DNA of 64,000 nt from Gordonibacter urolithinfaciens (GTDB lineage Bacteria; Actinomycetota; Coriobacteriia; Coriobacteriales; Eggerthellaceae), in assembly GCF_900199375.1 (NCBI RefSeq), contig NZ_LT900217.1, forward strand, positions 2,790,001-2,854,000, read 5' to 3'. The position numbers were made by a program, and so were the translations under genes. Of the stretch, positions 1,160-18,690 are shown piece by piece (the first letter of the stretch is position 1; each line of letters starts with the position of its first letter). The notes beneath the pieces were generated by a model, which saw nothing but the letters and a program-made list of their open reading frames with translations, was not told where the DNA came from and made no database searches.

Positions 1160-2139
1160 AGCATTGCCGGCAGGGCGGTGCGGTGCGGCGGCGGGGGCGA
1201 ATGCAGAACCGCCCCTTTCTGCACGTTTTTCACCAGATTATTGCGTTTTGGGGCGGCTGCGTCCTCTCGGCGAGCCGTCGGCCCGCCGTCCTCGTGTCTC
1301 TTGGCCGGCGTTTCCCCTGTTCGCGAGTTTCGGACTTGCGCAGAAGCCGTCCGCGGGGGGATGTGCGTGCAACATTCCGGTAAATAGTGTGCAAAAAACC
1401 GCTGCCGGCGATGCTCCTTAATCGCTGAACATTATTTATTGACGATTGCTCAATAATGGAAGCCGAGTTCCGGACCATTCCGGGCCGTTTATTCGACGAG
1501 GCGTCGTGGCGCAAGGCGGGCTCTCGCGGTTGCATGGTCCGAGCCGTGAAGGCGGCTTGACCGCATGGGCGAGCGAGGGCCGAGTCCCGGGTTCGCCCGC
1601 GCCGGGAGCGCGCGGGCTGCCATGGCCTGCACGGCAGAGGGTGCGCGAATTGTGGAGAAAATGTACGACGCAGGTAACTTCTCTTGCCCGCGAATTCATG
1701 TTAGCTTAATCTAACTTACATCGAAAGCGCAACGGAACGGCGCAGGCGAACTCGGAGCGGCTCGGCCGCTGGCAGCCTGCGGGAACGGCTTTCGACCATC
1801 GTCCGCCGACCCGGCGGCGGAGGCTCCTCTCGTCTGGCCATCCGCCGCACCTCCTAGCGGAGGGAAGATCCCCCCTCTTCCCTCCGCTTCTCCTGTTTTG
1901 AAGCGAAATAGCCGGCGGCGGCTCGGCAGCAGGTCTGCCGTCCGGGCGGCGCATCCCTGTTGCGAAAGCGCGGGCGGTCGGCAGAAGGCGGGAGGAGCCT
2001 GCGCTCTCGCATGCGTTCGTCTCGCCTCGACGGCCCGGCGGTTTTCGTTGATAATGGAGACGGATCCAGCACAGGGCATGTGTGCAAAGCGCGTGCGGAA
2101 GGGTGCGCCGAGGGCGCGCGGGAAGGGGGATTGGCCGGC
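1160..2139. other. Long intergenic region without convincing gene
   Basis: Nearly 1 kb separates the acetyltransferase from the response regulator. Short open frames on both strands lack ribosome-binding sites and the G/C-rich third codon position of neighbours. The only ordered features seen are two AT-rich dyads. One lies at 1436-1456 and is listed separately. The other is at 1700-1715 (GTTAG, six bases, CTAAC), inside the AT-richest stretch and about 430 bp before the regulator gene. The region may be a decayed gene plus a promoter area; no coding remnant was recognised with confidence. Confidence 0.5.
1436..1456. promoter_or_regulatory. AT-rich inverted repeat resembling the DUF4143-ATPase operator
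   Basis: Seven-base arms TTATTGA and TCAATAA are perfectly complementary around CGATTGC. The right half (TTGCTCAATA) is identical to half of the 22-bp palindrome at 49447-49468 in front of the DUF4143 ATPase. An ATG overlaps the right arm at 1456 and opens a 34-codon frame beginning MEAEFR, like the MAEFRR start of that ATPase, then stops at 1560. This could be a decayed relative of that gene with its operator; the coding claim is weak. Confidence 0.45.
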
Positions 2140-17013: not shown

Positions 17014-17174
17014 GGCACCATAATCACCGGTTTTCGACGGAATGCCTTCCCCTCGGGCCGCGCCTTCCGAAATGCCGTTCTGCGACGAGGGGAAACGTCG
17101 GACCACCTCGCTTGCGCCCCGCTTGCCGCCAGCCTCTGCTTCCCAATCTGTAAAAATGCGGTGATTACTGTGCC
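17014..17174. mobile_element. 161-bp non-autonomous element, copy 1
   Basis: The left end GGCACCATAATCACCGGTTT (17014 onward) and the right end CGGTGATTACTGTGCC (to 17174) form terminal inverted repeats of ~25 bp with a few mismatches. The inside has no open frame. A second element with almost the same ends and length lies at 18529-18690. Read in reverse complement, copy 1 shares with copy 2 a core GTTTCCCCT at the same internal position, so the two appear to lie in opposite orientation. A MITE-like nature is inferred. Confidence 0.7.
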
Positions 17175-17191
17175 GATGCGCGGCCTGCTGG

Positions 17192-17197
17192 TAGAAT
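17192..17197 (+). promoter_or_regulatory. Possible -10 box (TAGAAT)
   Basis: TAGAAT stands ~130 bp before the start of the nuclease-like gene, directly after the right end of element copy 1. No good -35 hexamer is seen 16-18 bp upstream. Confidence 0.3.
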
Positions 17198-17325
17198 AGC
17201 GGCACCACGGAGCCAGTGCAGGCGCTCTTCGCCTCGGCGAGCAGCCCATTGCAGGAACGGCGTGCCCCCCGTTCCCCTACCACGCTTGCAAGATCCTCTT
17301 AGCAAAGGGCTTGCAAGGAGGTTCC

Positions 17326-18340
17326 ATGCCCGTCTCCTCCCATCCTGACCGTGAGCGCGCGCCTATCATCTTCGGACACAAGACCGCCTTGGCCATCCTG
17401 CGCTCGGCGGCCCCCCGGACGCTTCCGCCGGTTGCGGGGAAAGCACGGGTGCTTCCCAGCCGCGCTCCGGCGAGGGGCGAGGTCGAGGCCGCCATCGAGC
17501 ATCTCGAGGCCTCATACCCGGATCTGCGCCTCGAAAGGCCTGCGCACGTGCTCGTTGGAAGCGCTGCGCTGGGGCGGCCTTCGAAGGCTGTCAAGTCACA
17601 TTCGCTGACCGTCCCTCTTTCGGGCACATCGTTTTACCGGTTGGGCGACGGCGTCTTCGCCTGCGTGCCGGCCCTCGCCTTTGTCCAGGAAGCCGCCCGG
17701 GGGAAGAGCCTGGTCGCCATACTCGAGCTTGGGTACGAGTTGTGTGGAACGTACCGGACCCGGCGCACAGGGGCCGCAGCTGCCTATGGGGTAGAGCCCC
17801 TGGCATCCGTCAGGTCGTTGGGCGGCTATGCGGCGCGGAACGCCTCGGTCGACGGTGCGCGCAAGGTCGGCCGTGCCCTTCGCTACCTTGCCGACGGCTC
17901 GGCCTCGGCGCGGGAGACGAAACAGGCCCTCGTCTTGGGGCTGCCCCATCGCCACGGGGGCTACGGCCTGGGAATCCCCCCATATGAACTACGAGGTCGG
18001 GGCGAGCAGGGCGGCCGAATCCCTCACCGGTAAGAAGTCGTTCCGCATGGATTTGTGCTGGCCGGAGCGGAAGCTCGATGTGGAGTACCAGAGCAGGGAG
18101 TGGCACGAGGGGGAGGCAAGCCGCGTCTCCGACTCGAGGAGGGCGAACGCCCTCATGTCCATGGGCTGGACGGTGGTGGGGGTGACGAACGACGAGCTCG
18201 ACAGCTTCGCGGCGACCGAGGCGATAGCGCAAACGCTCCGCCGGCACCTGGGCAAGCGCGCGCAGATACGTACGTCCAACTACCATGGGCGCAAGCTGGA
18301 GCTGCGCAGGCAGCTGGGCCTCCCGATAGGATACGAGTAA
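17326..18340 (+). pseudogene. Frameshifted DUF559/Vsr-type nuclease-like gene
   Basis: ATG 17326 follows AAGGAGG by four bases. The frame runs to the C6 tract at 17976-17981 and would there enter a short junk tail (stop at 18033). The other frame continues from MNYEVGASRAAESL to a stop at 18340 with full coding character. Removing one C joins them into 337 residues. The C-terminal part (FRMDLCWPERKLDVEYQS..WHEG...RRANALMSMGWTVVGVT) has the layout of DUF559/Vsr-like restriction-fold endonucleases: an acidic residue before a hydrophobic strand, then E-x-Q. The N-terminal ~170 residues resemble the helical/AbiEi-like front seen in such actinobacterial proteins, but this is uncertain. It lies between the two 161-162 bp elements. 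Confidence 0.7.
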
Positions 18341-18528
18341 CTGAAGGCGGCGTGGCAGCGACTCCGCCCGACGCGCCGCCCGCCCCCCCCTGCACCCGGT
18401 TGCCGTGGCACCGCCCGGCGCCCCTCTGCACCCGCTGTCCGTGGCGCCCCCCCCCTCCCTGCATGGCCCGGTGCGGGGGAGGGGCGGGCGGGCGATGCAT
18501 CGCTCTTCGAGCGCCATGACGCCCCGTT
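18341..18528. other. C-rich intergenic sequence with imperfect direct repeats
   Basis: Two ~27-bp units (CCCCTGCACCCG.TTG.CGTGG and CCCCTCTGCACCCGCTG.CCGTGG) and several homopolymer C runs of seven to nine bases. No gene is seen. Confidence 0.5.
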
Positions 18529-18690
18529 GGCACAGTAATCACCGGTTTTCGACATGCGCGCGGCCTGGGACAGCGCGATGGGGCCCGAAGGCCGCCTCTT
18601 TCGGGTGTTTCCCCTGGTTGTTCGTAACGCCGAAGGCGAGACCCGCTCTGCTGACGCGGCCCGCTGTAGAAAACCGGTGATTACTGTGCC
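18529..18690. mobile_element. 162-bp non-autonomous element, copy 2
   Basis: The left end GGCACAGTAATCACCGGTTT and the right end AAACCGGTGATTACTGTGCC are exact inverse copies; pairing extends ~25 bp with a single mismatch (TTTTCGAC versus TTTTCTAC). The inside carries no gene. Ends and length match the element at 17014-17174. The better-preserved ends suggest this copy is younger. Confidence 0.75.

Follow-up and report, generated by a model that had tools for sequence, protein, structure and literature searches.

The stretch analysed here, called the window, comprises 64,000 nucleotides of the Gordonibacter urolithinfaciens genome. Two short elements, W1 and W2, lie on either side of a nuclease-like gene, and a third copy of the element is found near the beginning of the window. 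The features are listed below; class numbers are the distances in bp from the left end to the central motif and from the motif to the right end.

1220-1393, minus strand: third copy, class 68/87, 170 bp end to end, with a counterpart in G002
about 17014-17174 (161 bp), plus strand: element W1, two inverted ends of about 24 bp and a central motif, class 67/75, with counterparts in G002 and G003
17083-17097, plus strand: central motif of W1, CGACGAGGGGAAACG
17311-18340, plus strand: nuclease-like gene between W1 and W2, with a DUF559/MTES_1575-like C terminus (sub-threshold)
about 18529-18690 (162 bp), minus strand: element W2, class 68/75, in the opposite orientation to W1, with counterparts in G002 and G003
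18606-18620, minus strand: central motif of W2, CAACCAGGGGAAACA

Five genomes of the genus, G000 to G004, were compared, with one genome per species; G000 is the source genome (complete, 3.29 Mb). W1 and W2 were found where the first-pass annotation had placed them, with 161 and 162 bp, and both open with GGCAC..TAATCACCG and close with its inverse. The core word that it had noticed (about CAGGGGAAAC) is indeed common to the two elements at an equal internal distance only when one of them is reversed, as it lies at 17083-17097 on the plus strand and at 18606-18620 on the minus strand. GGCACNRTAATCACCG has seven exact matches in G000. Base composition predicts about 0.001 exact occurrences of a 16-mer per genome, which excludes a chance origin of the shared ends. 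With up to two mismatches, 40 matches were obtained in G000 versus 8 for a reversed control pattern.

The enclosed gene is frameshifted as described: in G000, its reading frame breaks at a run of C, which leaves the gene in two frames, and it is open over 379 codons in G002 and 387 codons in G003. The frameshift may mark a recent pseudogene or an assembly or sequencing error. The restriction-fold C terminus proposed for it finds partial backing, as it matches MTES_1575 (E = 5e-4) and DUF559 (E = 0.0014) and both matches stay below the Pfam curated cut-offs. Several paralogues of the gene exist elsewhere in G000, for example, at 126967-128068 and 2393214-2393711. No elements flank the two paralogues that were fetched (L136 and L137; G000 126-129 kb and 2392-2395 kb).

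W1, the gene, and W2 are jointly present in G000, G002, and G003, and all three are absent at that locus in G001 and G004. This joint presence and absence is the one observation that would speak for the composite mobile unit suggested earlier. Such a unit is not shown by it, since a collinear arrangement in three of five species that is missing from two fits a cassette as well as a deletion. No second place was seen at which this gene or a transposase is framed by elements, and the other copies are solo.

Distribution of the element family

A search of the genome and its relatives for further copies with the same ends retrieved solo copies scattered through G000 and the related genomes. Pairing of ends in G000 yielded 12 elements. 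A profile built from 29 aligned elements then detected further copies, which in G000 were four fetched copies and the third window copy at 1220-1393. G000 hence holds at least 17 copies; all per-genome copy numbers are lower bounds, with the best 20 candidates per genome scored. In total, 74 elements were collected, and removal of 8 close orthologues left 66 non-redundant copies (18 from G000/G002, 10 from G001, 18 from G003, 11 from G084/G085/G087, 5 from G110, and 4 from G007). Outside the genus, only the best-scoring matches were taken, of which 20 were fetched.

Ends with at most one mismatch occur in four of the five genus genomes and not in G004. A strict two-end pattern, which accepted any length of 140-170, matched 12 stretches in only three Gordonibacter genomes among 84,980 species genomes, and it had no match in 2.9 million viral contigs. 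With the patterns and sensitivity used, the ends were not found in 50,697 phage or 72,556 plasmid records either. The profile search over 138 Eggerthellaceae genomes gave matches at E ≤ 0.01 in 46 genomes, which are mostly weak and may be due to chance. At E < 1e-6, nine of the 138 genomes remained, namely G000-G003 and the genomes G007, G084, G085, G087, and G110 of other genera. The layout is the same in copies fetched from the latter five, and their end sequences are lineage-specific. Going by these matches, the family is present in other Eggerthellaceae genera besides four Gordonibacter species. We found no description of such elements in the literature on Gordonibacter, Eggerthella, or Coriobacteria, as covered by titles and abstract openings outside subscription journals. 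The main text of the RepRanger article (PMC12306157) makes no mention of Eggerthella or Gordonibacter.

The position of the elements relative to genes is inconsistent between copies, and no common neighbouring gene was found. Of 30 neighbours compared with Pfam, most are housekeeping, transport, or regulator genes, and no family is common to them. An orientation bias of the motif along the replichores was considered and rejected, as 12 of 17 copies in G000 point toward the origin (dnaA at 1.637 Mb), which is not significant, and G001 is mixed.

Spacing, periodicity, and constraint

Each element begins with (G)CACARWAATCACCG followed by a 10-base inner part, together about 24 bp, and the same sequence is found inverted at the opposite end. 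Between the ends lies a one-way central motif of 15 bp near CGANCWGNGNAAACG, which is asymmetric with partial dyad symmetry. The motif is recognizable in 65 of the 66 non-redundant copies, the exception by score being E06. Different copies mostly have unrelated spacers.

The distance from the left end to the motif is 56-58 bp in 31 copies, 67-68 bp in 33, and 78 bp in one, with no values between. From the motif to the right end, it is 66 bp in one copy, 74-77 bp in 54, 86-87 bp in nine, and 96 bp in one, again with no values between. Total lengths are grouped at 139, 146-150, 157-159, and 168-170 bp. A Rayleigh test of the lengths disregards common descent, and its value is not taken as a probability. 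There are seven combinations of left and right distances; one copy counted as an eighth is a tie of two motif matches and, by our reading, is E10. This element (L043, G000 2588981-2589140) has two good central motifs 32 bp, or three turns, apart.

As detection was by single ends, or by two ends at any length of 140-170, the spacing classes were not imposed by discovery. The seven combinations require at least about six independent length changes, each near a multiple of 10.5 bp; as the copies are related by descent, about six independent changes, and not 65, may underlie the length classes. Steps of whole helical turns would be required by B-DNA and not by RNA. The distances show ends and motif separated by whole helical turns, which places all three sites on one face of the helix.

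The base composition follows a similar rhythm. Aligned on the ends, A+T content peaks near −25, −15, −4, +6, +16, +26, +36, and +47. This period of about 10.5 bp runs through the unconserved spacers and reaches about 25-30 bp outside the ends. Over the 66 copies, the power at 9.5-11.5 bp was not reached by any of 2000 shuffles, neither inside (24 to 57) nor outside (−60 to −9). The same holds to the right of the motif (0/2000) and to its left (0/2000), where the signal is weaker and peaks at 9 bp instead of 10.5 bp. In-phase A+T exceeds out-of-phase A+T in 59 of 66 copies, with the phase set from the same pooled profile. The values are 0.38 versus 0.22 for W1 and 0.27 versus 0.22 for W2. We read the periodicity as a sign that about 200 bp of DNA are wrapped or strongly bent.

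Next to spacing, we analysed sequence change between homologous copies. Fifteen pairs were aligned and 12 of them summed, leaving out two pairs with less than 72% identity and the inter-genus pair E05/L196. Changes amounted to 15 of 240 positions in the inner ends, 7 of 180 in the motif, 129 of 1141 in the spacers, and 128 of 716 in the flanks. The motif differs from the spacer with p = 0.0014 and the inner ends with p = 0.02. For end positions 0-13, the low rate (7 of 336) is partly due to ascertainment, as copies were detected through their ends; this effect bears less on the motif, the inner ends, and the spacing. Indel columns in the 12 pairs numbered two in end positions 14-23, two in spacers, and eight in flanks (Fisher p = 0.017). 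In two pairs of deeper divergence, 37 of 95 and 36 of 94 spacer positions had changed, with one and two spacer indel columns, respectively. In E05/L196, 21 of 83 spacer positions had changed, and spacer and motif each had a single indel column. W1 has kept its position in three species despite diverged spacers. These alignments show that, between species, spacer sequence changes more than ends, motif, and spacing. Neither reading offered by the first-pass annotation, MITE insertions or a composite unit, predicts the helical quantization and the apparent selective constraint, and we consider both to be the main result.

Within single copies, the left arm matches the right arm more closely than the species consensus would account for, at positions 3-7 and 14-23 (0/5000 within-species shuffles). 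This matching is absent beyond −9 and inside 24. It could come from template switching at inverted repeats or from subfamily descent.

Interpretation and alternatives

On balance, we consider it probable that W1 and W2 belong to a dispersed, non-coding, slowly mobile family of intergenic Eggerthellaceae elements (about 140-170 bp between end motifs) that work as double-stranded DNA and are protein-bound and wrapped. A predicted protein or protein pair would bind the two ends and the central motif simultaneously. The DNA would be bent or wrapped around the binder as a compact loop of about 150-200 bp, comparable to the wrapping of DNA by histones or DNA gyrase. With less confidence, we suggest that a MITE-like route dispersed the copies and that they are now retained because the wrapped complex serves the host, for example, by docking gyrase or another architectural protein. 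As the gene position is inconsistent, a host function is inferred from constraint only. The copy-specific arm matching is not required by simple protein binding and would count against the wrapping model.

A plain MITE moved in trans is a rather unlikely alternative. The body of about 150 bp would bend so that its ends meet on one face, with a bending protein at the centre; there would be no host function, and the visible copies would be those still mobilizable. Such bending would explain the length classes, and Goryshin and colleagues reportedly described in 1994 a length periodicity for short IS50 constructs. The elements have the shape of a MITE, with terminal inverted repeats and a length below 200-300 bp (in fact, below 200 bp), and are intergenic, scattered, and patchy between species. 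E04 occurs only in G000 and G002, and the same gene interval is found without it in three of the five genus species. E08, which resembles a copy from another genus, is present in G000, versus a 45-bp interval at that place common to G001, G002, and G003. Some paralogous copies at different loci share their interior (79% for G1_L092/G1_L218, 75-80% for three G003 copies). Against recent movement, W1 and W2 keep their place in G000, G002, and G003, and E05 is found in the same setting in another genus; E05 is either deleted in G002 or an old insertion.

Against a plain MITE stand several results. Most copies within a genome share no interior, and individual copies are constrained at the motif between species. 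No consistent target duplication was seen over 352 combinations of offset and length in 66 copies. The five genus genomes revealed no transposase flanked by such ends; in them, every end (at most one mismatch) has a partner 146-169 bp away. The differing presence of E04 and E08 is what the comparison of empty sites delivered; a clean empty site was found neither there nor at E05 or the G002 copy at 3367 kb, as all intervals differ by more than the element. The proposal of MITE copies at a plastic locus is largely supported by the scattered solo copies, the partly shared interiors, and the patchy E04. Since neither a target duplication nor a transposase was found and only some pairs share their interior, we do not file the family as a proven MITE.

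Correia or NEMIS elements of Neisseria are among the closest known systems. According to PMC2229807, their 155-bp form has, like the present elements, inverted ends of about 24 bp, a central protein-binding (IHF) site, an intergenic position, and no autonomous gene; target duplications are listed there, and the sequences are described as similar. The Eggerthellaceae elements differ, as their interiors are mostly unrelated, they show no duplication, and their distances come in helical turns.

Less probable is a strong DNA gyrase site akin to BIME-2 or the Mu site, in which gyrase would cut near the central motif and its two C-terminal domains would wrap the phased arms. Periodic GC/AT arms around a centre, as looked for in strong gyrase sites, are present here, and the centre is partly dyad-symmetric, flanked by arms with similar periodicity. 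The E. coli gyrase motif, as described in PMC6379681, spans 130 bp with a centre and two arms and has a GC% period of 10.75 bp, which is compared there with nucleosomes; BIME-2 repeats are enriched in gyrase sites. BIME-2 and the Mu strong gyrase site resemble our elements in intergenic position, palindromic arms, composition phased at about 10.5 bp around a centre, and a proposed architectural role (PMC6379681). However, the gyrase motif is degenerate and lacks ends of the strict 24-bp kind, and the periodic zone of the elements is longer, at about 200 bp. REP units are short hairpins, whereas the elements conserve both a 15-bp centre and their strict 24-bp ends. This reading overlaps with the wrapped complex preferred here, for which gyrase would be one candidate protein.

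We regard a structured RNA, in which compensatory changes would keep a long terminal stem, as very improbable. When the arms of 29 elements are counted as a helix, 87.7% of cells are paired and 68 double changes occur, which none of 500 shuffles reached, and the copy-specific arm matching would also fit. The non-Watson-Crick arm cells of the 66 copies, however, include as many G-U as A-C combinations (51 of each). Wobble is thus tolerated on neither strand, and the arms are alike as double-stranded sequence, not via RNA pairing. This equality led us to reject an RNA hairpin. There is further no conserved interior structure and no Rfam match to an element, and spacing in helical turns has no meaning for RNA. 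ERIC, RU-1, and other small MITE-like repeats resemble the elements in being short, intergenic, imperfectly palindromic, and dispersed; the RNA-level effects reported for repeats of this type in PMC2229807 are not supported for the Eggerthellaceae elements.

Least probable of all are invertons, where a recombinase would flip about 160 bp between the inverted ends: these ends match in a copy-specific manner and helical phasing is to be expected when short DNA is inverted, but in all collinearly aligned G000/G002 orthologous pairs (one genome per species), the motif points the same way with respect to the flanks.

For the wrapped, protein-bound element that we favour, the phage attP (lambda intasome) and the GalR/HU repressosome offer parallels, as they combine end or arm sites with a central site in helical register on wrapped or looped DNA of about 110-240 bp. 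Unlike these, the elements are many scattered copies without an adjacent integrase or a common promoter. A more specific version, which we put forward as tentative and rather doubtful, is a sequence-addressed wrapping site: a dedicated protein would read ends and centre in register and wind about 150-200 bp at tens of fixed intergenic places, similar to a nucleosome, under selection, and spread by transposition.

Repeats dispersed between genes are mostly regarded as RNA hairpins or selfish debris. In the present case, sequence comparison by itself yields a double-stranded geometry with three sites in register, periodic composition, and constrained spacing, which makes a nucleoprotein complex predictable and directly testable. 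If true, a fixed, sequence-addressed architectural site would be added to the chromosome biology of common gut bacteria. The 160-bp element would then also offer a route to its predicted protein.

Some other features were seen around the elements. Sites similar to parS (TGTTTCACGTGAAACA, at most one mismatch) number 33-157 in each of ten Eggerthellaceae genomes (G000-G003, G007, G084, G085, G087, G109, and G110) and are spread over the chromosome. This is far more than the usual handful of parS sites near the origin. Exact parS sites lie within 28-76 bp of three of nine G084 elements (loci L190, L192, and L193). An association as a general feature was rejected, as none lies within 400 bp of any other copy checked. 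A second dispersed repeat ends with GTCAATGGCGGTTTAACRGCGGA exactly 13 bp outside the GCAC end of an element in seven cases from three species (L091, L092 at both ends, L195, L216, L218, and L222), and other copies of this repeat occur without an element. Finally, a selenocysteine tRNA lies near E02 (L035, 975-1067), and a glycine riboswitch lies near an element of G003 (L105, 3049-3145).
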